DNA of 40,328 bases. Source: Candidatus Endomicrobiellum roisinitermitis (GTDB taxonomy: Bacteria; Elusimicrobiota; Endomicrobiia; Endomicrobiales; Endomicrobiaceae). This document shows positions 3,466 to 40,328 of the stretch, one piece after another. The first letter of the stretch is position 1. Each line of letters starts with the position of its first letter. Location of the stretch: positions 1-40,328 of the forward strand of contig JAITSL010000005.1 in assembly GCA_031287855.1 (NCBI GenBank). Reading direction: 5' to 3'. The notes beneath the pieces are model-generated. The model did no database searches. It was not told the origin of the DNA and saw nothing but the letters and a program-made list of their open reading frames with translations. The position numbers and the translations under genes are program-made.

Positions 3466-3973
3466 ACAGTTTCAAGATAAAGTAAGCAAACTTGCAAAGG
3501 AAATTTTTGAAAATAACAAAAATGTTGCAGATCTTGCAATTGTAGGAATCCAAAACAAAGGCGTTTTTTTGGCTAAAAGGATTATTTTTGAAATTGCAAA
3601 ACTAGCAAACATTAAAGAGTCACAAATTCCTTTTGGAACTTTAGACATAACTCTTTATAGGGATGATCTTGAAAATTTTGACTCTAAAATGCATACAATA
3701 AAAGATACAGAAATTCCGTTTGATATGAGCCGTAAAAATATTGTCTTAATTGATGATGTCTTATACACAGGGAGAACTGTAAGAGCTGCTTTAGATGTTT
3801 TGATGAGCTTTGGTAGGCCTAAGTCTATAAGTCTTGCTGTTTTGGTTGACAGAGGCTTTAGGGAATTGCCAATAGAACCAAACTATGTAGGTGTAAAGTA
3901 TGAAAGTCAAAAATTTATAAAAGTGTCTTGCAAAGAGTCAGATGAAGTAGATGAAGTAAAAATAGAGATTTGA
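3440..3973 (+). CDS. pyrR: PyrR: pyrimidine operon regulator / uracil phosphoribosyltransferase
   Basis: 177 residues, normal for PyrR. The PRPP-binding loop is IVLIDDVLYTGRTVRAALD (~100-118), and DRGFRELPIEPNYVGV is the PyrR-specific segment that separates it from other PRTases. Family members bind pyr mRNA and attenuate transcription in response to UMP, and many also convert uracil plus PRPP to UMP. It lies directly before pyrB, as in Gram-positive pyr operons, but inside a pur/pyr hybrid train. I found no obvious PyrR binding loop or attenuator in the 34 bases before pyrB, so its RNA target here is not visible. Confidence 0.94.
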   Translation: MTEIILNAKQFQDKVSKLAKEIFENNKNVADLAIVGIQNKGVFLAKRIIFEIAKLANIKESQIPFGTLDITLYRDDLENFDSKMHTIKDTEIPFDMSRKNIVLIDDVLYTGRTVRAALDVLMSFGRPKSISLAVLVDRGFRELPIEPNYVGVKYESQKFIKVSCKESDEVDEVKIEI

Positions 3974-4007
3974 TAATGAGAACTAAAATTAAACAGAGGA
4001 ATTGTTA

Positions 4008-4946
4008 ATGTCTTTTAATCGCAAAGATTTGCTAGGCCTAGAGCACTTAGATAGAAAAGATTTGCAAACAATTTTGGATTCGGTAAAACCTTTTAAAAGT
4101 CTTTTTACAAGATCTTTGAAAAAAGTTCCAACACTAGTAGGTAAAACAGTGGTAATTCTTTTTTATGAGCCATCGACTCGCACTAGGACATCTTTTGAGA
4201 TTGCTGCAAAAAGACTTTCTGCAGATGTTGTAAATGTTGCAGTAAGTACTTCTAGTGTAGTTAAAGGTGAGAGTCTTATAGATACAGGTAGAACTCTTGA
4301 AGCTATGAAAGCAGACTATATAATAATTAGACACTCTCTTGCAGGCGTGCCAGATATTTTGGCAAGAAATTTAAGTGCTTCAATAATAAACGCTGGAGAT
4401 GGCTTTCATGAACATCCAACACAAGGTCTGCTTGATTTGTATACGATGTATGAAAAAAAGAAAAAGCTTGAAGGATTAAAGGTTTTACTTGTGGGGGATA
4501 TTTTACATTCTAGAGTTGCTAAATCTAATATATGGGCATTAACAAAAATGGGTGCGCAAGTTGCAGTTTCTGGGCCACCTACATTGATCCCTGCAGGGAT
4601 AGAAGATTTAGGTGTAAAAGTATACTACGATTTGGATGAAGCTGTAAAACAAGTGGACGTGGTAAACATTTTAAGAATACAGCTTGAACGCCAAAAAGAG
4701 AACCTTTTCCCTTCAGTTTACGAATATGTGGAACTATATCAGCTTACTAAAAGAAGGTTGAGATCTGCAAAAAAAGATGTTTTAATTATGCATCCAGGGC
4801 CTATGAATAGAGGCATAGAAATATCTTCTGATGTTGCAGATAGCTCTAATGCTGTTATTAATGAGCAGGTTACAAATGGCATAGCTGTTAGAATGGCAGT
4901 TTTATATCTCTTAAACCCAAAGAGGAAAAATGAGTCTTCAAATTAA
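4008..4946 (+). CDS. pyrB: Aspartate carbamoyltransferase catalytic chain
   Basis: Carbamoyl phosphate plus aspartate to carbamoyl aspartate, the first committed pyrimidine step. 312 residues from the ATG at 4008, chosen over the TTG at 4002 because AGAGGA ends seven bases before that ATG. The carbamoyl-phosphate loop FYEPSTRTRTSFE lies near residue 52, VVKGES carries the mobile lysine loop, HEHPTQGLLDLYT and HPGPMNRG complete the active site. No pyrI regulatory chain is adjacent, so control is probably through PyrR only. The 3' end overlaps pyrC by 17 bases. Confidence 0.96.
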   Translation: MSFNRKDLLGLEHLDRKDLQTILDSVKPFKSLFTRSLKKVPTLVGKTVVILFYEPSTRTRTSFEIAAKRLSADVVNVAVSTSSVVKGESLIDTGRTLEAMKADYIIIRHSLAGVPDILARNLSASIINAGDGFHEHPTQGLLDLYTMYEKKKKLEGLKVLLVGDILHSRVAKSNIWALTKMGAQVAVSGPPTLIPAGIEDLGVKVYYDLDEAVKQVDVVNILRIQLERQKENLFPSVYEYVELYQLTKRRLRSAKKDVLIMHPGPMNRGIEISSDVADSSNAVINEQVTNGIAVRMAVLYLLNPKRKNESSN

Positions 4947-6201
4947 AAATATTAGAATAGTGGACCCTTCCTGCAATAAAGATTTTGTTGGTGATATTTA
5001 TATTGAAAATGGTAAAATTGTTTCAAGTTTATCTAGTAAAGCAGATGAGATTGTTGATGGCAAAGGAAAAATTGCAGTCCCTGGTCTCATAGACGTTCAT
5101 GCGCATTTAAGGGAACCTGGGCAAGAAGGCAAAGAAACAATTTATACAGGTACGCGTTCGGCTGCAAAAGGCGGAATAACTACAGTTTTTTGTATGCCTA
5201 ACACTAAGCCTGTGATAGACAACGCTCCTACTGTGGAGTTTATTCTTTTAAAAGCTCAGAAAGAAGGGCTAATAAATGTGTTCCCTATAGGATGTGCTAC
5301 AAAAGGTTCTTGCGGGCAAGAACTTTCTGAAATAGGGGTTCTTAAGAAAGCTGGTATTGTAGCAGTTAGTGATGACGGCTTACCTGTATCTAATTCTCAA
5401 ATTATGCGTCGTACTTTAGAATATGCAAAAATGTTTAATCTGCCTGTTATTTCTCATACTGAAGATAAGGAGCTAAGCAAGGATGGCGTAATGAATGAGG
5501 GTAGAAATTCTACTATTTTAGGTCTTAGAGGTATACCAAAACAAGCTGAAGAAATTATAGCAAGTCGTGATATAATGCTAGCAGAACTTACAGGTGGGTA
5601 TTTGCATATAGCTCATGTTTCCACTTCAGGATCTGTTGATTTGGTAAGACAAGCAAAGAAAAAAGGCGTAAAAGTAACAGCAGAAACATGTCCGCACTAT
5701 TTTACTTTAACTGACGATATAGTAAAAGTGTATGATGCAAATACAAAGATGAATCCTCCTCTTAGAGAACAAAAAGATGTAGATGCTATAAAACAAGGAC
5801 TTGTTGACGGGACAATAGACGTTATAGCAACAGACCACGCACCTCATACTCAAGATGAAAAAAGCCAAGAGTTTGATTTGGCTCCTTTTGGAATTATAGG
5901 TTTTGAAACCATGTTAAGTCTTGTTTTAAATGAGCTGGTAGATAAAAAGATTTTAAGTTTTTCTGAAGCTATATCAAAAATGACTTCTAATCCTGCAAAG
6001 ATTTTTAATTTAAATGGTAGAGGATCTTTGAAAGAAGGAAGTATTGCAGATATAACAATTATAGATCCACAATACTCTTATGAGTTTAAGAAAGAAAGCA
6101 TTGTGTCAAAGAGCAAGAACTCTCCATTTTTAGGCAGACAATTTAAAGGTGGTGCGGTTATGACTATAGTTGATGGTAATATTGTTTGGCAAAGCAGTTA
6201 A
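4930..6201 (+). CDS. pyrC: Dihydroorotase, class I
   Basis: Cyclises carbamoyl aspartate to dihydroorotate. 423 residues; the start has AGAGGA upstream and overlaps pyrB. Metal site motifs are DVHAHLREPG (55-64), AVSDDGLPV, SHTEDKEL, IAHVST and ATDHAPHTQ. The length and the SDDG motif place it with the long class I dihydroorotases of Bacillus and Aquifex type, not the short E. coli type. 33 bases separate it from pyrK. Confidence 0.96.
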   Translation: MSLQIKNIRIVDPSCNKDFVGDIYIENGKIVSSLSSKADEIVDGKGKIAVPGLIDVHAHLREPGQEGKETIYTGTRSAAKGGITTVFCMPNTKPVIDNAPTVEFILLKAQKEGLINVFPIGCATKGSCGQELSEIGVLKKAGIVAVSDDGLPVSNSQIMRRTLEYAKMFNLPVISHTEDKELSKDGVMNEGRNSTILGLRGIPKQAEEIIASRDIMLAELTGGYLHIAHVSTSGSVDLVRQAKKKGVKVTAETCPHYFTLTDDIVKVYDANTKMNPPLREQKDVDAIKQGLVDGTIDVIATDHAPHTQDEKSQEFDLAPFGIIGFETMLSLVLNELVDKKILSFSEAISKMTSNPAKIFNLNGRGSLKEGSIADITIIDPQYSYEFKKESIVSKSKNSPFLGRQFKGGAVMTIVDGNIVWQSS

Positions 6202-9296: not shown

Positions 9297-9831
9297 TGCT
9301 CTTTTAACTGGACATTTTAAACTTTCAAGTGGACTTCATTCTGATACATATTTTCAATCTGCTTTAATTCTACAATATCCTAAAAAGGCAGAAATTTTAT
9401 CACAAGAGCTTGCAAAGAAGCTTAAAGAAAGTGGCATAGAAGTTGATGTGGTTGTTTCTCCTGCTATTGGGGGCATAATTATAGGGCAAGAGATGGCAAG
9501 AGCTTTAAGGGTCAGAGCAATATTTACAGAAAGAGTAGAGGGTACAGTTTTACTTAGGAGAGGTTTTTCTGTAAAAGAAAATGATAAAATTTTAATTGTA
9601 GAGGATGTTATAACTACAGGTCTTTCAACCAAAGAAGTTATAAACGCTCTTAAATCTTCAGGTGCTAAAATAGTAGCGGTTGTTTCTCTTGTTGATAGGA
9701 GTGCAGGTAAAGTGGATTTTGGAGTCCCAAAGTTTTCTCTTTTAAGTCTGGAAATTAAAAGTTATAAAGAAGAAGAATGTCCCATGTGTAAGGGAGGCGG
9801 TATTGCATTAAAGCCTGGGAGCAGAAAATAG
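9256..9831 (+). CDS. pyrE: Orotate phosphoribosyltransferase
   Basis: Orotate plus PRPP to OMP. 191 residues. The PRPP loop is VEDVITTGLST (115-125). SSGLHSDTYFQ at the N-terminus and SPAIGGIIIGQE are typical. The C-terminus carries a CPMCKGGG pair of cysteines seen in many clostridial-type PyrE proteins. AGGAGT precedes the ATG, which lies inside the exporter gene. With pyrB, C, K, D and F this completes UMP synthesis from carbamoyl phosphate. Confidence 0.95.
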   Translation: MQQEELKTLFKENNALLTGHFKLSSGLHSDTYFQSALILQYPKKAEILSQELAKKLKESGIEVDVVVSPAIGGIIIGQEMARALRVRAIFTERVEGTVLLRRGFSVKENDKILIVEDVITTGLSTKEVINALKSSGAKIVAVVSLVDRSAGKVDFGVPKFSLLSLEIKSYKEEECPMCKGGGIALKPGSRK

Positions 9832-28343: not shown

Positions 28344-28544
28344 CTATCTTCTTTGTTTTAGTGATGTATTTTTGTTTAAAGCAATAATACCTTTAGAGAA
28401 TATTTCTTTTATACCATAAGGTAATACCATTTTATAAAAGAATTTATTTTTTCTTGTTCAGCTGCAATTTCTACAGTTATGGAATCTAAAGTCATACCTA
28501 TAATTGTGCCTTTAAAAATACTAAACCAAAACTATGTGTTGCAT
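28344..28544 (-). pseudogene. ilvN: Acetolactate synthase small subunit, remnant
   Basis: The ATG at 28544 opens MQHIVLV, as at the start of IlvN/IlvH, then stops. After a deletion of the middle, the frame resumes with TLDSITVEIAAEQEKINSFI, then a one-base shift at a short A run (T4 on the plus strand at 28430-28433) leads to MVLPYGIKEIFSKGIIAL, the hallmark C-terminal part of the first IlvN domain (P-[FY]-GIKE followed by G-x-x-AL). The stop is at 28344. ACT-domain feedback regulation is lost. It lies between ilvB and ilvC as in an intact operon. Confidence 0.85.
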
Positions 28545-28590
28545 AAAATATACCCACTTACTAAATTATACAAAATAGTTATTAAATAAT

Positions 28591-29432
28591 TTATCCATTC
28601 ATTCTTGTTACAATGCCATCAAGAGATGTTCCGGATGGAACCATAGGAAAAATGTTTTCTTCTATTACAATCCATATATCTAAAACCACTGAACATTTTG
28701 CCTTTAACATTTTTATTAAATTTGTAACAGCAATATCAGCTTTTTTTGATATTTCAAGGATTTCCTTTTCCGCGTTGGAAACAATAACGCCACTACCTAT
28801 ATAAAATAGGGGTCTTTTACTATTGTTTATAATCTCAGCTGCTTTTTTAATTTGTCCTGGATGCCCTTCATAAGTAGGTTTATACCAACGTATTTCTATT
28901 CTTTCTGGATAGACAAATTCACAGACTCCATGCTTAACATCAATAGGTACATCTACCAGAACAGGGCCTGGCCTTCCCGTTGTTGCAATATAGAACGCTT
29001 CTTTTATAGTCCTTGCTAAATCTTTTACGTTTTCAACTAAAAAGTTATGTTTTGTTAGAGACCTTGTTATGCCTATAGTATCTGCTTTTTAAAACGCATC
29101 TTGCCCTATAACGCTTGTTGATCTTGTCCTGTAATTGCTACTATGGGAACAGAATCCATATATGCAGTGCCAAGCCCAGTAACTATGTTTGTCGCACCAG
29201 GGCCTGAGCTAGCTATAACCATACACCAGGCTTACCTGTGGAACGAGCGTAACCGTCAGCCAGCCATGTGTGAAGCAACTTGCTAGTGTCTTATTAAAAT
29301 AAAATTTAGTTTTGAATCATAAATTGCGTCAAATATAGGTAAAGCCTGTCCTTCTGAGAGTCCAAAAGCAACTTCAACATTTTCTTTTAACAAGCTTCCA
29401 ATTAAAATTTGTACGCCTGTCTTGTTTTTCAT
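28591..29432 (-). pseudogene. ilvB: Acetolactate synthase large subunit, remnant
   Basis: The ATG at 29432 starts MKNKTGVQILIGSLLKENVE and FGLSEGQALPIFDAIYDSKL, the IlvB N-terminus, and stops at RH. The normally following E-G-A-A-H motif (with the active-site Glu) is lost. Later frames give [28 protein letters not shown], then GRPGPVLVDVPIDV and RPLFYIGSGVIVSNAEKEIL. Near 28720 it jumps to EENIFPMVPSGTSLDGIV, the protein's extreme C-terminus, so about 250 codons, including most of the ThDP-binding domain, are deleted. Several stops and shifts. Clearly non-functional. Confidence 0.92.
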
Positions 29433-29561
29433 ACTGGTTTCCTTAATGCCACTACTTGCTTGTGTCAAGCAAAACTGATTCTTAAAATTTATCAATAAAC
29501 ATTTTGACGACAGCAGTTTTGCCAATTCTAGAAATACAGCCAATAAAAGCTAACTTTTTCA

Positions 29562-31211
29562 TTATTTTAAAATTGCACCAATATCTGCTGACTGCACAAG
29601 TTTTGCATAGCGAGCCATATAACCTGTTTTAATTTTAGGTTCAGGTTTAACAACCTTTAAAAGTCTTTCTTTTATTTCAGCGTCACTTAGATTAACGTTT
29701 AGAGTTCTTTTCGGTATGTTGATATTTATAATATCACCCTCATTAATAGCAGCTATTGGCCCACATGCTGCAGCTTCAGGAGAGATATGCCCTATACATG
29801 GGCCTCTTGTTCCTCCTGAGAAACGTCCGTCTGTAAGGAGAGCAACAGAATCACTTAATCCCATACCGTATAATGCGCTTGTGGGGCTTAACATTTCTCG
29901 CATTCCAGGCCCGCCTACAGGTCCTTCATATCTTATAACAACAACGTCTCCAGGAACAATTTTGTTGTCGATGATTGCTTTCATGGCATCCTCTTGGCAA
30001 TTAAAAACGCGCGCTTTGCCTGCAAAAACTTTCATTTTTTCACTTATGGCCGCCTGCTTAACAACACAGCCGTTAGTAGCAATATTGCCTTTTAAAATTG
30101 CAATACCGCCTTCCGGTTTATAAGGATTTTCAACTCTTATAACATCTTTATCTAAAATCTTTGACAATTTTGCGATTTCGATTATGTCACAACCCGTTAC
30201 CGTTTTAGAACAAGCTAAACTTTTTTGAACCGCATGTAGTACGGCAGGTACACCGCCGGCATTGTCTAAATCTTCCATAAAATAATCCCCTGCGGGCTCT
30301 AAGCACGCTATCTGCGGGGTTCTTTTAGAGATTTCGTCAAACAAATTCAAAGGTAATTTAATTCCAACTTCATTTGCTATAGCCGGAAGATGTAGAACTG
30401 TGTTTGAAGAACCGCCTAAGGCCATGTCGACAGTAATTGCATTTTTAAAAGCGTCTAATGTTAAAATATCGCTAGGTTTTATATCTTTCTTTACAAGTTC
30501 AACAATTCTTATACCTGATTCATAAGCAATTCTTTTTTTCTTTGCAGTGACAGCAAGGGCAGTTGCACAACATTGCAAAGACATTCCCATAGTTTCAGTT
30601 AAACATGCCATAGTGTTAGCTGTGTACATTCCTTGACAAGCACCAGCACCTGGACAAACTGTTAGTTCAAGTTCTGCAAGTTGCTGTTGTGTAATTTTAC
30701 CTGCTTGAAATTGTCCTACAGCTTCAAAAGTGTCCCTTACCATAGAACGTCTTTTTTTATCATACATACCGGTCATCATAGCTCCAGCTGTAACAACTAT
30801 AGAAGGAATATTAAGTCTTGCCGCGGCCATAAGCATGCCAGGTGTAACTTTATCACAGTTTGATAAAAGCACAAGACCGTCTAATCTATGAGCATTTGCA
30901 ACAATCTCTATTGAATCTGCAATTATTTCTCTTGAACCTAAAGAATAGTGCATGCCGCTATGCCCCATAGCAATGCCATCACATACTGCCGGCACACCAA
31001 AAATAAAAGGGACTCCATTACCTACTGAAACACCTCTTTCTATATATCTTTCTAAGTCACGCATTGTTATATGACCCGGGACCAAATCTGAAAATGATGA
31101 AGCAATCCCTATAAATGGTTTATTTATATCTTTTGGACTTATACCAGTAGAATATAATAAACATCTATTGGGCGCTCTTAAAGTACCTTTTTTTATTTGG
31201 TTACTTCTCAC
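29562..31211 (-). CDS. ilvD: Dihydroxy-acid dehydratase
   Basis: Third enzyme of the branched-chain pathway, Fe-S dependent. 549 residues. Cluster cysteines lie in [14 protein letters not shown] and [28 protein letters not shown] is the conserved C-terminal motif. First gene of the minus-strand ilv operon. Intact, although the synthase genes behind it are destroyed. Confidence 0.96.
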
Positions 31212-31271: not shown

Positions 31272-31285
31272 TTATTTGGTATGCA

Positions 31286-31407
31286 TAATTAAGAGAGTAT
31301 TCAATTACAGATATATGAGAATATTTTTTGGAATTTATGCAATACTTGATTGCACTGTAGAGTCCAAAGCAATCTCAATGAAATATTAAGCATTGTATGC
31401 CCCCATA
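31286..31407 (+). repeat. Left copy of ~122-bp inverted repeat bounding the MNT-HEPN cassette
   Basis: This block matches the reverse complement of 33757-33878 without a gap. In the central ~107 bases I count eight mismatches, mostly transitions, so about 92% identity. Recognisable markers are GAGAGTATTCAATTA at the outer end and AATATTAAGCATTGTATG at the inner end. No short target duplication is evident outside the two copies. Confidence 0.9.
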
Positions 31408-31446
31408 TTGACAAAAACAAATCGCAATACAATTAAAAGGGTCTTG

Positions 31447-31860
31447 CAACTTTTACCAGTCAGGATTTCCAAATATGCTGATGAGTAATCCTGTTTTAGC
31501 TCAGGAGGAATTGAAATTGAGGAAAGCTAGTTCGGAGCCAAAAAAGTTATAGGAAACATAGACCGCTGAGCCTGTCGAAAGGCCAAGGTATTTGGCATGA
31601 AAAAGTACTACGACAAAATATATAGACAGGTTGTGGCTAATTGTTCAGATACAGAATTAGTGCCGATAATCAAGAAGTTAGTTCCAAACGATTCAACTAT
31701 TTACAGTGACTAATAGAAGGCTTATGATGGTAAATGCCTGATACAAGAAGCATTATGGTGTACAAGACACTGAAGAGATCTTTGCTAATGAGACAGTTCA
31801 GGTATTTCCTCTCTAGTCTTGCCCCAATGTAAAATTTAGTAGCCAAGCAAAACAGCAAGA
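31447..31860 (+). pseudogene. IS1595/ISXO2-type transposase remnant
   Basis: Frames read RISKYADE and SGGIEIEES-stop-FGAKKVIGNID, matching the DDE transposase stretch with the first catalytic Asp/Glu context (E-I-D-E-S-Y-F-G). Then KVFGMKK, VVANCSDTELVPIIKKLV and DSTIYSD-stop-stop-KAYDG follow (second Asp in the IYSD motif), then HYGVQDTEEIFANETV and LVAKQN. Several stops, shifts and the loss of the N-terminal zinc/HTH part make it inactive. It lies inside the inverted repeats, before the MNT-HEPN genes. Confidence 0.8.
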
Positions 31861-31921
31861 GTTGCCGCTAGCAGAAGAATATGTAGAGTGTTTAGGGAAG
31901 TAAGAGAAGGAGGTCAATTAT

Positions 31922-32177
31922 AATGTTAAAGTTCCTAAAGGATAAGTTCATAAAGGTGGAGTCGTCGGGTTGACAAAAGTAGTTGAAAAATAAGATAATA
32001 AATTAGATTTAAGTGCCAGTGTATTACAATTTAAATGATGTTGAAATATAAAACAAAGAGGCATTGCAAGCAGTATCTGTGGACAGAAGTGTTGAGTTAG
32101 GTAAAGAGTGTGATAGTGAGGAAATATTTTTTAAAAACTTAGATGGTCAAAACGAAGATATCGAAGTGCCGTTCTAA
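31922..32177 (+). pseudogene. Degraded coding sequence of unknown origin
   Basis: Protein-like pieces remain between stops: NVKVPKG, VHKGGVVGLTKVVEK, YYNLNDVEI, and an open run of 41 codons (32052-32174) ending DGQNEDIEVPF. The acidic tail with a final P-F recalls SSB-type C-terminal tips, but the rest gives no support for SSB. With the flanking transposase relic this fills 31408-32234, where I see no intact gene. Confidence 0.3.
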
Positions 32178-32234
32178 AGAAATATAGGATATTAGGGGAT
32201 ATGACAATATATTGGCTAAAGAGAGAGGATCTCT

Positions 32235-32642
32235 ATGAAGACAGTAACACAGATGCCAGTACCAGAAGCGCCAGTCTCAAAAAAGCGTGCAGAAAAACCA
32301 AAAGAAATAAATGATTATTTAAGTCTAGTAGTTGAAAGGTTAAAAGCAGCAGACCCATACAAGATAGTATTGTTTGGGTCTTATGCTAAAGGCAATGCTA
32401 AACCTGATAGCGATATAGATTTGATGGTGATACTAAATACTGAATATTTTTCAAAAAATGGAACTGAAAAATTAAAAAGAGATTGTAGGATAATACGTTT
32501 AGTGTCAGATATACATTATGAATATGGTATGGATTTTAAAGTTTATTCAAAGTCGGAGTTACAAGAACTTAAAAATAGAGAGAATTTCTTCATACAAGAG
32601 GTAGAAAGAACTGGAGAAACATTATATGAAAAAGGTAACTAA
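32235..32642 (+). CDS. MNT-type nucleotidyltransferase (antitoxin-like), copy 1
   Basis: 135 residues. The nucleotidyltransferase motif GSYAKGNAKPDSDID (48-62) fits the GSx10DxD pattern of MNT-domain antitoxins, which pair with HEPN proteins; in the studied MntA-HepT system the MNT protein adenylylates the HEPN toxin. Residues 1-22 are a Pro/Lys-rich extension absent from copy 2. The 3' end overlaps the HEPN gene by 17 bases. GAGAGGAT stands before the ATG. 95 bases (32298-32392) are identical to 33046-33140 in copy 2. Confidence 0.88.
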   Translation: MKTVTQMPVPEAPVSKKRAEKPKEINDYLSLVVERLKAADPYKIVLFGSYAKGNAKPDSDIDLMVILNTEYFSKNGTEKLKRDCRIIRLVSDIHYEYGMDFKVYSKSELQELKNRENFFIQEVERTGETLYEKGN

Positions 32643-33003
32643 GGAATGGATAATTCATTCGCAAGATGACATGAATATTGTTAAAAATCTTTTTGCGGAT
32701 GGTATATCTGTACAGGGTGTTATCTTTCATTGTCAACGTGCAGTAGAGAAATATTTTAAAGCGTTTTTATTAGAGCACGGAGCTAAATTCAACAAAACAC
32801 ATGATTTAGAAAATCTATATAAAGAAGTAAGAAAAATTAAGGATTTTAAGTTGGAGTTAGATACAATAATTGAGCTTTACAAAAGATATTCTGACACGAT
32901 TTATCCGGGAGATATTTGGCCACCCACACAAGAGGAAGCCAGAGAGTTTTACAAGTTCGCCTTAGAGGTAGAACAAAAAATCAAAAAAGAGTTAGGTGCT
33001 TAG
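32626..33003 (+). CDS. HEPN-domain protein (toxin-like), copy 1
   Basis: 125 residues. The four-helix HEPN fold of the PF05168 type is seen in HSQDDMNIVKNLF, FHCQRAVEKYFKAFLLEHG, KTHDLENLYKEV and YKRYSDTIYPG. I see no RX4-6H ribonuclease motif, so the catalytic mode of classic HEPN RNases, and the RX4HXY site adenylylated in HepT, are not evident. The gene overlaps its MNT partner. The last ~55 bases are identical to the end of copy 2. Confidence 0.85.
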   Translation: MKKVTKEWIIHSQDDMNIVKNLFADGISVQGVIFHCQRAVEKYFKAFLLEHGAKFNKTHDLENLYKEVRKIKDFKLELDTIIELYKRYSDTIYPGDIWPPTQEEAREFYKFALEVEQKIKKELGA

Positions 33004-33030
33004 CTCCTAGTAGGAAGAAGGAGATAAAAC

Positions 33031-33390
33031 GTGAACACAAAAAGGCCAAAAGAAATAAATGATTATTTAAGTCTAGTAGTTGAAAGGTTAAAAGCAGCAG
33101 ACCCATACAAGATAGTATTGTTTGGGTCTTATGCTAAAGGGGAAGCAAAGCCTGACAGCGATATAGATTTGATGGTGATACTGGATAATGAGTATCTTTC
33201 AAAAGATGGTGCTGAGGAAACGAAAAGAGATTGTAAGGTAATAGAGTTGGTAGACGATATACATTATAAATATGGTATGGATTTTAAAATTTTCTCAAGA
33301 GCAGAATTTCAAGAACTTAAAAATAGAGGTAGTTTTTTTGTATACGAAGTAGAGCGCACGGGGGAGACTATATATGAAAAATATAATTAA
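33031..33390 (+). CDS. MNT-type nucleotidyltransferase (antitoxin-like), copy 2
   Basis: 119 residues from a GTG start with AAGGAG seven bases upstream. The motif GSYAKGEAKPDSDID (32-46) keeps both Asp residues. The N-terminal half is nearly identical to copy 1, while the C-terminal half (from DNEYLSKDGAEE) has diverged. Overlaps its HEPN partner by 17 bases, the same arrangement as copy 1, so the pair was duplicated as a unit. Confidence 0.88.
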   Translation: MNTKRPKEINDYLSLVVERLKAADPYKIVLFGSYAKGEAKPDSDIDLMVILDNEYLSKDGAEETKRDCKVIELVDDIHYKYGMDFKIFSRAEFQELKNRGSFFVYEVERTGETIYEKYN

Positions 33391-33778
33391 AGAGTGGATA
33401 GACTTTGCCCAAAAAGATATGCGTACTAATGAGAAGCTTTTGAAATATAGTGATTTTGATACAGAAATTGTTACCTTCCATTGTCAGCAAGCAATAGAGA
33501 AATATTTCAAAGCGTTTTTGTTAGAAAATGGGTGGCAACTACAAAAGACACACGATATAGTAACATTACATAAAGAGATAAAAAAGATTAAAGATTTTGG
33601 TTTTGACTATGGCATAATAAACAGTATCTACAAGATGTATTCTGATATTCGTTATCCGGGCTATTACAAGCCACCCACACAAGAACAAGTCCGAGAGTTT
33701 TACAAGTTCGCCTTAGAGGTAGAACAAAAAATCAAAAAAGAGTTAGGAGTAGAGGGTATGGGATCATACAATGCTTAA
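33374..33778 (+). CDS. HEPN-domain protein (toxin-like), copy 2
   Basis: 134 residues; WIDFAQKDMRTNEKLL, FHCQQAIEKYFKAFLLENG, KTHDIVTLHKEI and YSDIRYPG give the HEPN pattern, again without RX4-6H. The 3' end differs from copy 1: after KKELG the frame runs into the right inverted repeat, which supplies the last residues (YNA and the bases before). The cassette end therefore forms part of the gene. Confidence 0.86.
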   Translation: MKNIIKEWIDFAQKDMRTNEKLLKYSDFDTEIVTFHCQQAIEKYFKAFLLENGWQLQKTHDIVTLHKEIKKIKDFGFDYGIINSIYKMYSDIRYPGYYKPPTQEQVREFYKFALEVEQKIKKELGVEGMGSYNA

Positions 33779-33878
33779 TATTTCATTGAAATTGCTTTGG
33801 GCTCTGCAGTGCGATCAAATATTGCAGAGATTCCAAAAAATATTCTCATATATCTATAATTGAATACTCTCAAAATTA
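33757..33878 (-). repeat. Right copy of ~122-bp inverted repeat bounding the MNT-HEPN cassette
   Basis: Reverse complement of 31286-31407 (see that entry). Its inner end overlaps the last codons of HEPN copy 2. Its outer end is 60 bases from the tRNA-Asn promoter. Both copies can encode the same short outward peptide starting MRIFFGI, which may be chance. Confidence 0.9.
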
Positions 33879-33965: not shown

Positions 33966-33996
33966 ATAAACAGCAATTTGAGTATAGTTGTTTAAT

Positions 33997-34068
33997 TCCG
34001 ACGTAGCTCAATGGTGGAGCAATCGGCTGTTAACCGATCGGTTGCTGGTTCGAGTCCAGCCGTCGGAG
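33997..34068 (+). tRNA. tRNA-Asn (anticodon GTT)
   Basis: 72 nt. Acceptor TCCGACG pairs with CGTCGGA; D arm GCTC/GAGC; anticodon stem ATCGG/CCGAT around loop CTGTTAA, anticodon GTT; T arm GCTGG-TTCGAGT-CCAGC; discriminator G. CCA is not encoded, consistent with use of a CCA-adding enzyme. G at position 34 is the queuosine position; a preQ0 gene set lies on the other strand. Confidence 0.97.
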
Positions 34069-34168
34069 TTTATATTTAGTGAAGAGATGTTACCGCTACC
34101 AGTGCAAGCATAGGAATAAGGTATAAATTTTACTTGTAAGCTAATAAAAATTATAACTATGAAAAGAT

Positions 34169-36004
34169 ATGAAAGAAATAACAAAACAACACAACACAAC
34201 ACAACACAACACAACACAACACAACACAACACAACACAACACAACACAACACAACACAACACAACAGACAATACCCCTTATTAGCTCGCTGTTTGTTTTT
34301 TTCTTTTTTACCAACAACGGTTTTGGCGCGTCCGGAGATAAGGAAGAATATATCGGCCAACAGATTCAACAGCAGCAGCAACAGGAGAAAAATTACAGAG
34401 ACAACATCAGAAGAATATTGGAAACAAAGCGAGTCAAAGATTCAAAGAAGTTAGGGCCAGTCCTTGATACAATTGAAGAAACGCCGCCGGTATCGTTAAG
34501 CGATGCCGCCGGCGTTTATAAATTTAATAAGATAGTTTTAATCGGTAACAGGGTATTTTCTTACAAAAAGTTATACAAGGCAATATTAAGGGATTTTAAG
34601 GGAAAACGTTTCTCTGTTGCAATCAATGATCACAGATTATTATGTTAAGCGCGGATATATAGCGGTAAAAGTTTATTTTGATAGAAAACATATCACATTG
34701 GATTCATTTGCATTTATTATAGAAGAGGGAATAGTAAGTAAAATAACGCTTAAAAACTCAAAGGACTTGTCGTTTAGAAAAAAGACCCGTCTATTTTTTG
34801 CATTTCCATTTTTGAAAGGGCGCCGCATAAATATAAACGATTTTGAACAGGGTCTAGATCAGATGAACAAGCTGGAGTCTAATAACATTACTATGCAAAT
34901 GAGGCCGGCGGGATTGGAGAATTTAGGCGATAGCGCTTCAGTTTATTTAATAACGATAAAAAAGACGCAAATATAGATTACGGGCAAATCCATGCTTTCC
35001 CTACGCTTGACTTGTTTGGTAATGATCACGAAAAAAAACGATTTAGTAAGTCTTTATACACATCATTTTCTTTTCCGTTTGGTTACTGGTCGTTTACCTC
35101 TGTGTTAAACTACGCAACATATAAAACGCTTGTAGAGGGGAAATACACCTTTTTTAATATTACAGGGGAAAGCGTAGGTCAAACATATTGGCTAGACAGG
35201 GTTATATGGAGAAAGCGGCAATATAAAATGAATTTAGGTGCGTCGCTTGGAATACAAGACAGCCAAGGTTATGTCAGAGACATAAGAAGCCAAACGGGAA
35301 GTGCAAGAAGGAGCAATTTATCGCTATACTTAAATAACACAATATATACAAGATATGCGATGCTGATAATAAAACCGTCATACCAAAAAGGACTTTCATG
35401 GTTTGGAGCAAAGATAGACAAAGACGTTTATGTAGATGAAGTTAGGCTTGATTCAGAGCCTCGCTTACAATATGATATAGTCAAACTTTACATGTATTTT
35501 AACGCGCAGGTAATAGCGCATATGTATTATAGTTTGATGATGGATTGGCAATATAGCTTTAACAGTTTATACGGAAACGAACAGTTCAGCGTTGGTGGAC
35601 AATACAGCGTTAGAGGTTTTAGGAATAGCACAATTAGTGGCAATAGTGGGTTTTATGTGCGCAATGAGGCAAGGACAAATTTGTTGAGAATATTTAATGT
35701 TTCTATATTTTATGATTTTGGATATGTTAAAAATAAACACAAAAGGCCTTACGATGATAGGTACAACAGTCAAAGTGGTTCATTAAGCGGGTGTGGAGTG
35801 TGTGTTGGATGGGATTTGCAATATATTAATATGTCCTTGACATATGCAAAATGGTTGCACAGGGCCAGATATTTGCAAGAGCGAGACGGTATAAAAAAAG
35901 AAGATAATGTTGTCTATTGGCGAATAGGAGCAAAAGTAATAACAAGAGAAATAAAGAATAAAATTATAGAGAGTGGTGGAAAATTGCCGCCAGGAATAGA
36001 GTAG
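34169..36004 (+). pseudogene. TpsB/FhaC/CdiB-type two-partner-secretion outer-membrane transporter, frameshifted
   Basis: Three blocks together make one ~610-codon gene. Block 1 (34169-34648): ATG, an (ACAAC)16 tract giving Gln-His-Asn-Thr-Thr repeats, a hydrophobic signal segment (IPLISSLFVFFFF), a Gln-rich helix and the first POTRA-like part. Block 2 (34617-34976, other frame): ITDYYVKRGYIAVKVYF, FAFPFLKGR and FEQGLDQMNKLESN, the hallmark POTRA/ShlB linker. Block 3 (from ~34958, first frame again, to 36004): the beta barrel, with YSVRGFRNSTISGNSGFYVR, the VRGY/F motif of loop 6. Shifts lie near 34620 and in the A6 run at 34958-34963. Family members export large TpsA or CdiA proteins; no such partner is here. 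GC is higher than in neighbouring genes, suggesting acquisition. Confidence 0.85.
34186..34265 (+). repeat. Pentanucleotide microsatellite, 16 units of ACAAC
   Basis: Sixteen perfect ACAAC units inside the 5' coding end of the TpsB-type gene, between the ATG and the signal segment. With a unit of five, gain or loss of one unit shifts the frame. An ATG at 34159 in another frame also reads through the tract. The current length keeps the 34169 ATG in frame with the signal segment and POTRA region. Confidence 0.97.
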
Positions 36005-36014
36005 AGGAGATATA

Positions 36015-36566
36015 ATGAAAAATTATAAAAAATTATTATTAGATGATATAAAAAGTGAATTGACAGATAAAGATGAATATAGCACTCATGTGAACTATTT
36101 GATCGGAAAAAATAAGAGTAAGAGAGAGTATTTAGTAGAGGGTATAAAAATCTTTAAGATTTTAATTGATATTTGTATAGAGAATGGTTTGGTAAATGAT
36201 TTTATTCCACATTTTGTTATATATTTAAAAGATGCAAGAGGGATTAAAAATCCTAATGAAAATATTGCAAGTATAGCAAATCTATTAAAGATATTGGATG
36301 AAGAAACACCTCCATCGGTATTTATGACCCAAAAAGTTATGAGTACTGGTACTTATACGTCTCAAGAGATGAGAAGTTTCTACTTCCCAAAAACTGCTGT
36401 GGAGAAATTATTTAATGAAAGTTTCGACAAAAATATTTATATGTATTATTATTTTTATAAGATTGGTAATGAAAAAATATATGAGAGAGCTATTAGTATT
36501 GAATATAATAAGCATGATGTTAAGAAAATAAAGTATCATAAAAGCTTGGAATTAGAGATAAAATAG
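36015..36566 (+). CDS. Unknown protein, immunity-like paralogue 1
   Basis: 183 residues, Lys- and Tyr-rich, soluble, no signal peptide. AGAGGAGAT precedes the ATG and the gene begins 10 bases after the TpsB-type gene, so they were co-transcribed. It is a clear paralogue of the next gene: LVEGIKIFKILIDICIENGL aligns with LLEGIKIYKSLVDISIENEW, followed by similar F-I-P/L-V-P and Y-L-K/H-L-K positions. In two-partner inhibition loci the small genes at this place are immunity proteins; that role is inferred from context only. Confidence 0.6.
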   Translation: MKNYKKLLLDDIKSELTDKDEYSTHVNYLIGKNKSKREYLVEGIKIFKILIDICIENGLVNDFIPHFVIYLKDARGIKNPNENIASIANLLKILDEETPPSVFMTQKVMSTGTYTSQEMRSFYFPKTAVEKLFNESFDKNIYMYYYFYKIGNEKIYERAISIEYNKHDVKKIKYHKSLELEIK

Positions 36567-36609
36567 ATAAAAGTAGAGATATAAAGATAGTAAAATAAGA
36601 GAGGGGAAA

Positions 36610-37188
36610 ATGACAGATTATAAGGATATGGTATTAAAATATTTAAAAGAGAATTATACTAACAAAAAAAGCACAGAATTTATTATAAGTATAGATAATT
36701 TTATAAAAGAAAAAGATAATAAGTTATATTTACTTGAAGGAATAAAGATATATAAAAGTTTAGTAGATATTAGTATAGAGAATGAGTGGGTAGATGATTT
36801 GGTACCAAGTTTTTATATACACTTAAAAACCACAAAAAATGTAGAAGTTCCAGATGTTAAAAACATTACTCTAAATAAGATACTTAAAGACATGGACAAG
36901 ATTAAGTGTCCAGAAATGCTAATGATAAAAAAAATTATTAAAGCAACATTTTATAATAATAAAGAGGTATGTAAGTTTGGAATAGAAAATAGTGTAGTTG
37001 AAAAAATATTTGAAGAGAAAATAAATTGTGATTTTTATGCACACTATGAATATATAAAGAAATATAAGCTACTAAAAGAGGAAGAAAGTGACTATTATGA
37101 TAAGTATATATCGATAGCGTATAATGAAAATCATATAAGAGATGTAAAAGATATAGATGAATTAGTTTTTAAAAAGAGGTATTCATAA
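36610..37188 (+). CDS. Unknown protein, immunity-like paralogue 2
   Basis: 192 residues, paralogous to the preceding gene over most of its length, with the same order of motifs and a similar end (ISIAYNENHIRDVKDI against ISIEYNKHDVKKI). Lys/Asp-rich and probably cytoplasmic. GAGAGGGG precedes the ATG. Tandem, diverged copies behind a transporter fit an immunity array, but no known immunity fold is recognised. Confidence 0.6.
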   Translation: MTDYKDMVLKYLKENYTNKKSTEFIISIDNFIKEKDNKLYLLEGIKIYKSLVDISIENEWVDDLVPSFYIHLKTTKNVEVPDVKNITLNKILKDMDKIKCPEMLMIKKIIKATFYNNKEVCKFGIENSVVEKIFEEKINCDFYAHYEYIKKYKLLKEEESDYYDKYISIAYNENHIRDVKDIDELVFKKRYS

Positions 37189-37229
37189 AATAATAGTTAA
37201 TATTTTCTGGAATAAATATAGGCTCGACT

Positions 37230-37454
37230 GTGATGCTGCTTGGAGGACTTGCGGTTGGCGCTGCGAGAAGTCGAGTTGCTACAAGTATCTCAAGAGCAAG
37301 AGCAATAAAACGTTATGTTAAATCGAGAGGTAAAAAATTTAAGGAGTTGAGAAAAAACCATTGGGAAAATGAATTTAATGTTAAAAATGAGGCAAAAAAT
37401 GAAGGTAATAAGATGAAAGTTTTGAATAAAAAAGCCAAAGGTGACTGTTTATGA
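37230..37454 (+). CDS. Fragment with a basic C-terminal-toxin-like tail
   Basis: About 74 residues from a GTG (ATG three bases later), without a good ribosome site; the frame is open back to 37197. A small hydrophobic Gly/Ala-rich segment is followed by a very basic stretch, RARAIKRYVKSRGKKFKELR, and KNHWENEF. The F-K-x-x-[FW] pattern after a basic run recalls the region before nuclease domains at the ends of polymorphic toxins. I read it as a possible relic of a secreted-toxin tail. Weak; it may be a chance frame. Confidence 0.3.
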   Translation: MMLLGGLAVGAARSRVATSISRARAIKRYVKSRGKKFKELRKNHWENEFNVKNEAKNEGNKMKVLNKKAKGDCL

Positions 37455-37537
37455 AAAAAAGCTTTAAGGCAAAGGGAGCAAAAACGATAAATGAAATAGC
37501 GCAACAGTATGAAGTACGTTCGAAGAGTAGAGTTTAA
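37451..37537 (+). mobile_element. IS3-type orfA (HTH) remnant
   Basis: The 28-residue frame starting MKKSFKAKGAKTINEIAQQY, then EVRSKSRV and a stop, resembles the N-terminal helix-turn-helix of IS3-family OrfA (F-K-A-K-V-A-L-E-A, then TI-x-E-[IL]-A-x-x-[YF]-x-V-H), with a short internal deletion and early truncation. No orfB or inverted repeats seen. Confidence 0.55.
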
Positions 37538-37652
37538 GCATAAATTATTTTATAAAATTTCTATTTCAATTGGGTATAAATTTGTTTTTAGCTAAACATT
37601 TTTATATACGTTAGACTGTCGTTATATTCTAAATTTAGGAGGATACATTAAG

Positions 37653-38249
37653 ATGGGTAGTATTATGAAAAGTTTAATGGTCTTTGTTTTGTTATTAACA
37701 GCTGTTATGACTGGGGTTACAAAGCCAAATAATGATAGAGAATTTATTTTAAAATTTGGAATTCAACCTTTAAACACTCTGTCACGAAAAAGTGAAGGCA
37801 ATAATGTAAGCTTTAACACAAAAATTGGGTTTTCTGCAGGATTTGAATATTTTCAATATTTAAATAATATTGCCGCATTAGGGCTTGGAGCAATGTATGA
37901 TTTTCCTAGAAAGGCAATTGATAATGATAATGATGATGATAGTATATCTTTTGTGCCACTTTTTGCAGCTGTGAAATTGCGCACACCTGCACAGGGGTTA
38001 GATAACGATAACACATTTATGTTTTGTTCAGGCAGGATAGGAGCTAGTATACCTATAATATCAGGTTTGTCCGATGGAGCAAAGCAAAAACCAGGATTTT
38101 ATTGTGGTGCGGGAATAGGATTTAATATAAATTATATAGTTATAGAAGCAATATACGCAATAAATAACTTTAGTGTTTCTGGTGATTTTGGGAAAAATGA
38201 TTTTGACTGTCAGACAATATCACTTTACGCTGGGTTTAAGTTTAAATAA
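37653..38249 (+). CDS. Outer-membrane beta-barrel protein, small
   Basis: 198 residues. AGGAGG lies ten bases before the ATG. Signal peptide ~1-22 (SLMVFVLLLTAVMTG). The remainder shows alternating strands suited to an eight-stranded barrel: ILKFGIQPL, GFSAGFEYFQYL, VPLFAAVKLRT, ISLYAGFKFK. An Asp/Asn-rich loop (DNDNDDD) lies near residue 90. It ends in Lys, not in the usual aromatic residue. Function unknown; probably surface-exposed. Confidence 0.65.
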   Translation: MGSIMKSLMVFVLLLTAVMTGVTKPNNDREFILKFGIQPLNTLSRKSEGNNVSFNTKIGFSAGFEYFQYLNNIAALGLGAMYDFPRKAIDNDNDDDSISFVPLFAAVKLRTPAQGLDNDNTFMFCSGRIGASIPIISGLSDGAKQKPGFYCGAGIGFNINYIVIEAIYAINNFSVSGDFGKNDFDCQTISLYAGFKFK

Positions 38250-38367
38250 ACTGAGTTAGCCTGTCTGAGAAAAAATAGATTATAATTGTTACTTAATTAA
38301 TATCAGCTATTAAGCGCTCCTACGCAGGAATGAAGGGATGGAACTCTAATAAAAAAAGGGAATGTTT

Positions 38368-39147
38368 ATGAAAAAGGTTTTACTGTCACTGTTAATGTTT
38401 TTTGTTTTTAGCGGCGTGTTAAGCGCAAAAAATTTATAAAGGTTGAAAAGCTTTTATATTGGTGGTACTGTAGGTGGTATGGACGGCATGTCCAGCAAAG
38501 ATAACTTAAAAGATATAGAAGATATATGTCATAATGTACATAATAAATTATATCCACTACATGGTCCACCTTGGTTGACTACGAATCTTTTTGATCCAAA
38601 GTCTTTTTGTGGATTGGAAATAGGTTATGAGCTTCCGCTAATAAGAGAAAATCAATTATTAGGCGTAAGATTTGGCTATAATTGGCACGAAGACATGTAT
38701 CTAGTTGTAAAAACAGTCTACTCAAGCATTCCCACAGAAGTAAATTCAAGATTGACATTAAAAGAAGTAAGTTCAGAATGGACATTAGAAAACGTAATGC
38801 AGTCAATCCCTGTAACGGTTTACTATAAATACGAATTTAAAAAGACTAAATTTTCGGTGCTTGGCGGTGTAGGGTTAACTTTCGTTGAGATGAAAGTTAT
38901 ACAAACGAATGAACAGAAGAATCTTGATGATAAACAAGAGGAGCGTATTTATAGAAGTGGTTCCAAAGCGTCACCTCATATAGCAGGAGGTTTGGAATAC
39001 AGATTTAGCAAACTTTTAGGCCTGTCGTTTGACTTAAAATACACGATAAATTCGGAAACTAAATGGGAAATTTATGGGACTGACTACGTCTTTAAAAGAG
39101 AGTTAGGTTTTCAAGGGGCGTTTACGATAAGATTTTACGCTTTCTAG
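38368..39147 (+). pseudogene. Outer-membrane beta-barrel protein with stop codon after the signal peptide
   Basis: The ATG at 38368 (GGGA upstream) encodes a textbook signal peptide, MKKVLLSLLMFFVFSGVLSA, then KNL and a TAA at 38437-38439. The same frame then stays open for 235 codons (38443-39147) with a glycine-rich start (FYIGGTVGGMDGM) and barrel strands, and ends GAFTIRFYAF with the C-terminal Phe typical for BAM-inserted barrels. A single nonsense change separates signal from barrel. No other defect is seen, so inactivation is recent, or a TTG at 38443 yields an unexported product. Confidence 0.75.
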
Positions 39148-39237
39148 TTTTATTTGTTTAATTGAATACTAGTTCCCAGGCAGTCAATGCTGGAATTAAC
39201 ATAAAATAACATAAAATTTAAAAAAGAGGACGCCAAA

Positions 39238-40328
39238 ATGAAAAGTCAGGGATTAGATGAACCAATAGTAAAGTCTGAAGATAAATATGGTAAAGGAGGA
39301 GCGACGCAGGCAATCACAAAAAGTGAGATAAAGAATGATGTAAATGAGAAAGAAAAGATGGTAAATAAAAACAGAATAAAATTATTGCTAATACTTTGTC
39401 TTAGTTTGAATATATCTAGTTATTTTCTTATGGCTCAAGACATAGTAATACGTGATACAGTGGTTAATCACTATGTTTTTGGAAATGGGGATGCAGGAGA
39501 TAATGGAAACGGAACTTTTGATACTATAGTACTAGCTTCCCAGAATAATAGTGTAACTATTTTGGGCATTGCAGGTGTTGGCATTATTGCTGGGGCTATA
39601 GATAGACCAGAAATTACAGAAGATGTTAGATCAAATAGCCTTGTCATAGATATAAGTACTAGTGTAACAGATCTTAGATGTGGGACGACAGCTGACGTAT
39701 GCGGAGGAATAGGGAGAAATTCTGGAAGTAATGCAATAGAAAACATTTTAAGGATAAACAATGGAGATATACAAAGAGATGCGTTTGGGGGAATCAGTCT
39801 TCTAGGAGAAGCAAAAAATAACAAGGTAATAATATCAGGAGGAGTATTAAGAGGTGATATAGGAGGAGGAGCAACTCAAGACTCTAATGCAAATGAAAAT
39901 AAAGTAATAATTAGTGGGGGAGAGATTTTAGGTAATATTTATGGAGGCATGTCTGGAGATGGAGGAGCAGTAGGGAACACGGTAGAAATTAGTGGGGGAG
40001 AGTTTTTAGGTAATATTTATGGAGGCATTTCTAGAGATGGAGGGGCAGTAGGGAACACGGTAGAAATTAGTGGGGGAGAGTTTTTAGATAATATTTATGG
40101 AGGCAGGTCTAGAGATGGAGGGGCAGTAGGGAACACGGTAGAAATTAGTGGGGGAGAGTTTTTTGCAGATGTTTATGGAGGCAAGTCTAGAGATGGAGGA
40201 GCAGTTGGTAACACGGTAGAAATTAGCGGGGATCCAAAATTTTCAACAAATACATTTATATATGGAGGATTCACTTCTACTGCTTCAGTAGCAGATGTTT
40301 TTACGAATAATACTTTAAATATAAAGAC
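39238..40328 (+). CDS. Repeat-rich surface protein, 5' part (continues beyond the window)
   Basis: The ATG at 39238 (AGAGGA upstream) opens a frame that reaches the window end, at least 363 codons. A charged 43-residue N-terminal extension comes before a signal-type helix (RIKLLLILCLSLNISSYFL), like the extended signal peptides of some autotransporters. The passenger starts after MAQD. From ~39820 there are repeated 26-residue units with EISGGEF, NIYGG and DGGAVGNTV, each rung G-rich as in beta-helical adhesins. An internal ATG at 39358 is a poorer start. By analogy with the protein at the left edge it may end in a barrel and an OmpA tail, but that part lies outside. Confidence 0.75.
   Translation, partial: MKSQGLDEPIVKSEDKYGKGGATQAITKSEIKNDVNEKEKMVNKNRIKLLLILCLSLNISSYFLMAQDIVIRDTVVNHYVFGNGDAGDNGNGTFDTIVLASQNNSVTILGIAGVGIIAGAIDRPEITEDVRSNSLVIDISTSVTDLRCGTTADVCGGIGRNSGSNAIENILRINNGDIQRDAFGGISLLGEAKNNKVIISGGVLRGDIGGGATQDSNANENKVIISGGEILGNIYGGMSGDGGAVGNTVEISGGEFLGNIYGGISRDGGAVGNTVEISGGEFLDNIYGGRSRDGGAVGNTVEISGGEFFADVYGGKSRDGGAVGNTVEISGDPKFSTNTFIYGGFTSTASVADVFTNNTLNIK
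39820..40240 (+). repeat. 78-bp tandem coding repeats
   Basis: Three near-identical 78-base units occupy 39976-40053, 40054-40131 and 40132-40209; diverged units lie before (from ~39820) and a partial one after (to ~40240). Each encodes one 26-residue rung. Identity between units is high enough for recombination to change their number. Confidence 0.9.

Follow-up and report, generated by a model that had tools for sequence, protein, structure and literature searches.

A probable fossil IS1595-type transposon carrying two HEPN/MNT gene pairs between ilvD and tRNA-Asn in Candidatus Endomicrobiellum roisinitermitis

Contig JAITSL010000005.1 of the termite-gut symbiont Candidatus Endomicrobiellum roisinitermitis (40,328 nt; hereafter the window) is one entire contig (C42) of the draft genome GCA_031287855.1 (G000; 1.26 Mb, 98% complete). 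Between ilvD and tRNA-Asn it carries a cassette bounded by two long inverted arms, within which lie, in order, a relic of an IS1595-family transposase, unassigned debris, and the four genes MNT1, HEPN1, MNT2, and HEPN2, all running in the same direction (Table 1). All four genes exceed the Pfam cut-offs, and the MNT and HEPN frames overlap by 17 nt in both pairs. An earlier note on this DNA had described a 2.6-kb segment with an IS1595-type relic and two MNT-HEPN pairs, framed by two opposed repeats of ~122 bp and lying 120 bp from a tRNA gene. Pfam domains and open reading frames (ORFs) bear out every gene in that description, the arms are indeed inverted, 122 nt each, and 90% complementary across a spacing of 2349 nt, and tRNA-Asn starts 117 bp past the right arm. 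The pairing of the arms is not a product of chance, since the left arm, searched against the complete 1.26-Mb genome, retrieved the right arm at E 9.5e-43, and these two were the sole matches.

Table 1 Positions of the cassette, its edges, and its flanking genes in the window
Feature	Position	Strand	Evidence and remarks
Left long arm	31286..31407	+	122 nt
Right long arm	33757..33878	-	122 nt
Left terminal inverted repeat proper, 26 bp	31293..31318	+	26-mer match, <=3 mismatches
Right terminal inverted repeat proper, 26 bp	33846..33871	-	26-mer match, <=3 mismatches
Left target-site duplication candidate ATAATTAA	31285..31292	.	7/8 match to right candidate
Right target-site duplication candidate AAAATTAA	33872..33879	.	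7/8 match to left candidate
IS1595-family transposase relic	31390..31734	+	blastx; PF12762; NCBIfam below cut-off
MNT1 nucleotidyltransferase	32235..32642	+	PF18765/PF01909
HEPN1	32626..33003	+	PF05168; 17-nt overlap with MNT1; without motif Arg
MNT2 nucleotidyltransferase	33031..33390	+	PF01909/PF18765; dN/dS 0.17 vs G021
HEPN2	33374..33778	+	PF05168; dN/dS 0.04 vs G021; last 22 nt in right arm
Promoter-like TTGACA-18-GATAAT	31970..31999	+	Candidate promoter of the gene pairs; 11/12 consensus
Fragment of unassigned reading frame	32019..32174	+	G000 and G021 only, 2/41 genus genomes
ilvD	29562..31211	-	Left neighbour, intact; Pfam
tRNA-Asn(gtt)	33996..34069	+	Right neighbour, intact; not insertion target

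A 26-base end, GAGAGTATTCAATTAyAGATATATGA, sits at both edges of the cassette in this genome and in that of a sister species (G021), whose cassette contig, judging from its sequence, corresponds to JAISBM010000016.1 of Endomicrobium sp. isolate Gx481_bin217; the sister genome holds the same end at a third place. When 340 genomes of the phylum were scanned with up to 3 mismatches, the end was found in 2, with no match in the other 338 and none for a reversed control. Because this rare sequence marks both edges, the element proper is probably delimited by GAGAGTATTC at 31293 and at 33871, for a length of 2579 bp (31293-33871). Directly outside them, the candidate target-site duplications ATAATTAA and AAAATTAA agree at 7 of 8 positions, a likeness equalled by 20 of 8288 pairs of flanking 8-mers (0.24%, roughly the chance for one set pair of places), and the same flanks are present in the sister species. 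The third copy of the end (contig C10, 53479-53504; locus L008, 6479-6506) has no long arm and encloses unrelated sequence. It matches the arms for 26-28 bp and then diverges, and may represent another, decayed element of this family; a zinc-ribbon-like reading frame beside it had no significant Pfam match and was not used as evidence.

Comparison across 41 genomes of the genus points to an insertion at this site. tRNA-Asn with its flank was matched in 37 of them, and 28 loci from non-carriers were taken with up to ~1.5 kb on each side. In 12 of these 28 loci, ilvD and tRNA-Asn are separated by a cassette-free spacer of 178-497 bp, compared with a distance of 2784 bp in this genome and of 2410 bp in the sister species, where the cassette occupies the same site in the same orientation. 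The remaining 16 loci are uninformative, ilvD not being seen in the stretch covered, and none of the 28 stretches held a match to MNT2 or HEPN2. Homology to the empty sites stops on the left at 31273 (G045) or 31282 (G018), 3-12 bp to the left of the duplication, which fits the arm closely, and restarts on the right at about 33936.

These borders also bear on the idea that no transposon was involved, and that ordinary toxin-antitoxin genes entered the spacer by homologous recombination, the arms and relic being unrelated debris. HEPN/MNT genes do occur elsewhere in the genus without such surroundings: relatives of HEPN2 were found in 4 of the 41 genomes, those beyond the two carriers having neither arms nor relic, an example being the single HEPN/MNT pair of G004 (L057 and L070, which are the same locus). 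However, in both species the gained block is enclosed by the arms, the left one within 3-12 bp of the point where homology stops, and the 7/8 duplication lies outside them; we regard this explanation as quite unlikely. Other routes of arrival were tried and rejected. tRNA-targeted integration does not fit an intact tRNA-Asn that lies well past the arm and is separated from it by a promoter-like block recurring in congeners. For plasmid carriage, only the tRNA-Asn end was matched among the matches listed (20 of 88 plasmid records), and for phage carriage, the relic gave no match to phages and HEPN2 none in viral_contigs (six-pattern scan). A search of PHROG with the relic returned phrog_9697 (function unassigned, E 1.2e-13) and a second, weaker PHROG, so phage-borne relatives of the transposase exist.

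The relic is what ties the cassette to the IS1595 family. DDE_Tnp_IS1595 (PF12762) was recognised at 31504-31734 with 26.8-27.7 bits against a cut-off of 27 (27.2 with neighbours), across 4 internal stops, and the NCBIfam IS1595 model (NF033547) scored 32.9 bits, under its cut-off of 75; an IS1595-type DDE domain is thus present at the Pfam cut-off, but partial and broken. A blastx alignment to a Piscirickettsia IS1595 transposase covered 113 columns at 36% identity (E 3e-14 in a 3-sequence test), and tblastn matched 41 plasmid records, the top one annotated as IS1595-family. Read from the blastx alignment, the DDE catalytic set is not intact: the first Asp is replaced by Glu, stops interrupt the frame, and the C-terminal third is missing. 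The sister species lacks everything between the arm and about 31811. Since no other IS1595 domain was matched in this genome at E <= 0.001, no recognisable member of the family is left to move the element, which is now apparently immobile. The mobile unit proposed in the earlier note is consequently upheld as an insertion, from its single site in two sister species, its absence from 12 of 28 congener spacers, and the 7/8 duplication, but not as a presently mobile one, its transposase being broken and unaccompanied. Within the genus, IS1595 domains occur in 6 of 41 genomes. Ends around other IS1595 fragments were examined at 5 loci, and a clear pair was seen at L039 alone, where G010 carries an intact copy whose ends reach up to 28 bp and whose flanking 8-bp duplication, TATACTTA, is perfect. 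Duplications of 8 bp, preferably A/T-rich, are also produced by ISApl4, an insertion sequence (IS) of this family (PMC12561309).

We consider it likely that the cassette is a fossil, that is, a dead transposon of the IS1595-type transporter IS (tIS) kind or a close derivative, with class II HEPN/MNT genes as passengers. A fossil insertion is indicated by the site shared between two species, the empty spacer in 12 congeners, and an end sequence confined to 2 of 340 genomes; as in a transporter IS, the relic and two MNT-HEPN pairs, passengers unrelated to transposition, lie together within 31293-33871. In the common ancestor of the two Endomicrobium species, the element would have entered the spacer separating ilvD from tRNA-Asn, presumably moved by the transposase of which the relic remains. 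The transposase has since been lost and the second pair conserved, while the first slot would have exchanged its pair, most simply via recombination between units of a longer array.

Several observations weigh against this reading. The target duplication is short and imperfect, at only 7/8, and homology to the empty sites restarts ~57 bp to the right of the arm, so that the right edge is placed by the end sequence alone. The arm homology of ~115 bp reaches far beyond the 14-28 bp ends of three IS1595 elements used for comparison, and those three begin with GGGG where the cassette ends begin with GAGAG. The relic scores at the Pfam cut-off and below that of NCBIfam. No intact copy of the element was found by its end pattern in the 340 genomes, and no inner end that would mark the left part as a separate IS copy.

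The earlier note had taken the repeats as far longer than IS1595 ends, and this stands for the arms, which are unusually long, but not for the end shared with the third copy, which is only ~26 bp; each arm is thus a 26-bp end plus ~90 bp of extra sequence. These extra bases raise the possibility of a composite structure, in which the arms would derive from a single IS, as two facing copies of its transposase-proximal end; the right copy would have been cut at 122 bp, the left one would have retained more of the transposase gene, and the gene pairs would have been trapped between them. Transposase homology enters the left arm by ~6 codons (blastx), and the tblastn matches listed begin at residue 13, 22, or 26 in a frame of which the arm covers residues 1-31. 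The NRNT motif is 127 bp away from the end of the element here and, by hand count, 161 bp in the intact congener IS, which makes it plausible that the transposase gene started within the arm. In the left arm, the extra ~90 bp falls at this expected gene start, which suggests two copies of one IS end and not a very long terminal repeat, and a pseudo-compound IS1595 transposon has been published (PMC12561309). However, the inner end expected for a left IS copy scored at best 18, against a shuffle median of 20, all four arms of the two species retain TAA where the left-arm transposase frame runs, and the aligned portion of the arm is short. We therefore hold a composite origin to be possible rather than probable.

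Left arms of the two species agree at 105/115 positions and right arms at 97/102, and left and right arms within a genome at 105/115 and 92/102. Among gap-free columns, 0 group by genome, as homogenisation would produce, and 2 group by side. This is weak evidence, from two carriers, but consistent with nearly identical arms at about the time of the species split, followed by drift and by no recent conversion or inversion. An invertible segment, as suggested earlier, in which recombination between the arms would flip the gene pairs and switch or vary their expression, is rejected on these grounds: inverted arms so long could recombine, and inversion between terminal inverted repeats of 23 bp has been published in Wolbachia (PMC3004938), but both of the only two known carriers share one orientation and the homogenised columns are absent, which leaves this explanation very improbable. 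The right arm does encode the end of the second HEPN gene, as had been noted, through the last 22 nt of HEPN2. In the sister species, HEPN2 stops ahead of the arm (stop at 9460 of locus L007, arm match from 9480-9490), and the overlap is thus specific to this genome and not conserved.

In contrast to the decay around it, the second gene pair is probably conserved by purifying selection. Between the two species, dN/dS was 0.04 for HEPN2, 0.17 for MNT2, and 0.19 for ilvD (Nei-Gojobori estimates from a single pair of short genes, without confidence intervals), and the debris around the pairs is 87% identical, with outer flanks at 97% and 90%. The first pair has had another history. In aligned cores, amino acid identity between the species is 54% for MNT1 and 53% for HEPN1, compared with 97% and 98% for the second pair, although the leader before pair 1 and the spacer after it are recognisably common to both genomes. 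In trees, the two MNT1 copies are not sisters, nor are the two HEPN1 copies; MNT1 of this genome groups with the pair-2 genes with a support of 0.91, and support in the HEPN tree is weak (0.77-0.80). Further, MNT1 and MNT2 of this genome share an identical block of 50 bases, which lies near the start of MNT1. Pair-1 divergence, trees, and shared block together indicate that slot 1 was replaced, or that a longer array contracted differently in each line. In the sister species, HEPN1 is broken, and MNT1 retains an open frame of 150 aa. A more dynamic version, in which the cassette would serve as an exchange platform, slot 1 being repeatedly replaced by a different HEPN/MNT pair and slot 2 kept within fixed flanks, we deem unlikely; if true, sister symbionts would differ in toxin-antitoxin specificities at one former transposon site.

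By their motifs, both pairs fall in class II of HEPN/MNT modules: a PF05168 HEPN stands beside a PF01909 MNT with GSX10DXD, and RX4H is absent. Class II has been defined as PF05168/PF01909 pairs in which the MNT keeps GSX10DXD and the HEPN lacks RX4H, with a tyrosine kept (PMC7641770). The RX4H RNase motif is missing from both HEPNs, which read RYPGYYKPP (HEPN2) and IYPGDIWPP (HEPN1), as is RX4HXY, the mark of class I, HepT/MntA type VII systems. In four aligned relatives outside the carriers, the motif reads RYPD or RYPGD, compared with RYPGYY in HEPN2 and a form without Arg in HEPN1, and several PF05168 proteins have D in place of H (PMC3710099). The NCBIfam MntA antitoxin model scored 38.8 and 39.9 bits, under its cut-off of 60. 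From these sequence motifs, the class I RNase model should not be assumed for HEPN1 or HEPN2. The MNT, first in the pair and with an intact GSX10DXD, most likely nucleotidylates and restrains the HEPN, and the pair may act as a chromosomal toxin-antitoxin or stress module. Both MNTs, and neither HEPN, match PDC-S09, a candidate defence family of PADLOC (E 2e-14 and 1.6e-13), which makes a phage-defence role an open candidate. A structural model of HEPN2 (pLDDT 88) is HEPN-like, its best matches being 2hsb (Z 14.8, rmsd 2.4, 119 aligned) and 1ufb (Z 14.4, rmsd 2.5, 120 aligned), with the caveat that helical bundles readily give high Z-scores. Foldseek against PDB returned nothing at E <= 0.001 for this model (best 1ufb, 1.7e-3), and sequence searches of PDB gave 0 matches for HEPN2 alone and 2 weak ones for a family profile. 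Because structure matches are either weak or easily high, the HEPN family call rests on Pfam. Elsewhere in this genome, a second, broken HEPN/MNT locus without arms lies at C51:3990-4199 (L065).

Among the minor features of the cassette, both hexamers of the candidate promoter ahead of the gene pairs were also seen by eye in the sister species; promoter-like sites overall numbered 14, compared with 12.9 (sd 3.8) in shuffles, i.e., no excess. The unassigned fragment at 32019-32174 had no match in Pfam or PHROG searches. Past tRNA-Asn, an (ACAAC) x 17 tract (34181-34266) lies near the start of an ORF without Pfam match (34169-34648), shortly before the frames of POTRA_3 (34617-34976) and a ShlB/FhaC-type translocator (35012-36004). 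A change in its copy number would shift the frame, so that the tract is a candidate for phase variation of a two-partner secretion translocator. The region of ~4.3 kb after tRNA-Asn that includes this translocator (34073-38345) is absent there in the sister species, where tRNA-Asn is followed by sequence matching 38346-39150 of the window. On the other side, next to the intact ilvD, the acetolactate synthase gene (28525-29543, named by eye) is an apparent pseudogene, in which ~899 bp of the open gene of the sister species (L007, 3920-4818 of 3790-5526) are missing. At the contig end, a 78-bp tandem repeat of 4.1 copies (39909-40231) possibly belongs to a repetitive surface protein.

The cassette suggests that HEPN/MNT genes were delivered into a small symbiont genome by a selfish vehicle, an IS1595-type transposon, and that these pairs were retained once the transposon had died; two species with the same cassette and a different first pair offer a small natural test of toxin-antitoxin turnover. 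Most of this is ordinary: IS1595-type ISs with passengers and HEPN-MNT genes in a Tn3 transposon were known already, the cassette is a decayed IS1595-type case, and the oddity is the gene swap between sister species. Recent gain or loss of HEPN-MNT modules among close relatives has likewise been published (PMC2701414). Among the literature matches listed, the portions available describe no IS1595-type element with HEPN/MNT passengers and do not describe this locus in Endomicrobia, and the available parts of PMC12457778 and PMC9296519 describe no such element either. The closest parallels are the published transporter ISs of the IS1595 family (PMC5704250, PMC3129680), of which tISCpe8 and MTnSag1/tISSag10 (PMC5704250) similarly combine an IS1595-family transposase with passengers inside one pair of inverted ends; the cassette differs in its dead transposase, its ~115-bp arms, and its HEPN/MNT passengers, and the GAGAG versus GGGG contrast of the ends was drawn from three other IS1595 elements, not from the ends of tISCpe8 or MTnSag1. 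It resembles the pseudo-compound transposon Tn7560 with ISApl4 (PMC12561309) in that IS1595-family copies flank cargo, but in ISApl4 the transposase gene is complete and the ends measure 14 bp, whereas the cassette holds fragments only. TnSod9 (PMC7157771) provides a HEPN-MNT pair as transposon passenger, but is of the Tn3 type with tnpA/tnpR, whereas the cassette is IS1595-type and decayed. Finally, the pairs share with class II HEPN/MNT modules (PMC7641770) an MNT in first position, GSX10DXD, the absence of RX4H, and tyrosines near the motif, and differ from them in standing as two tandem pairs within a transposon remnant, with a HEPN1 that also lacks the Arg.

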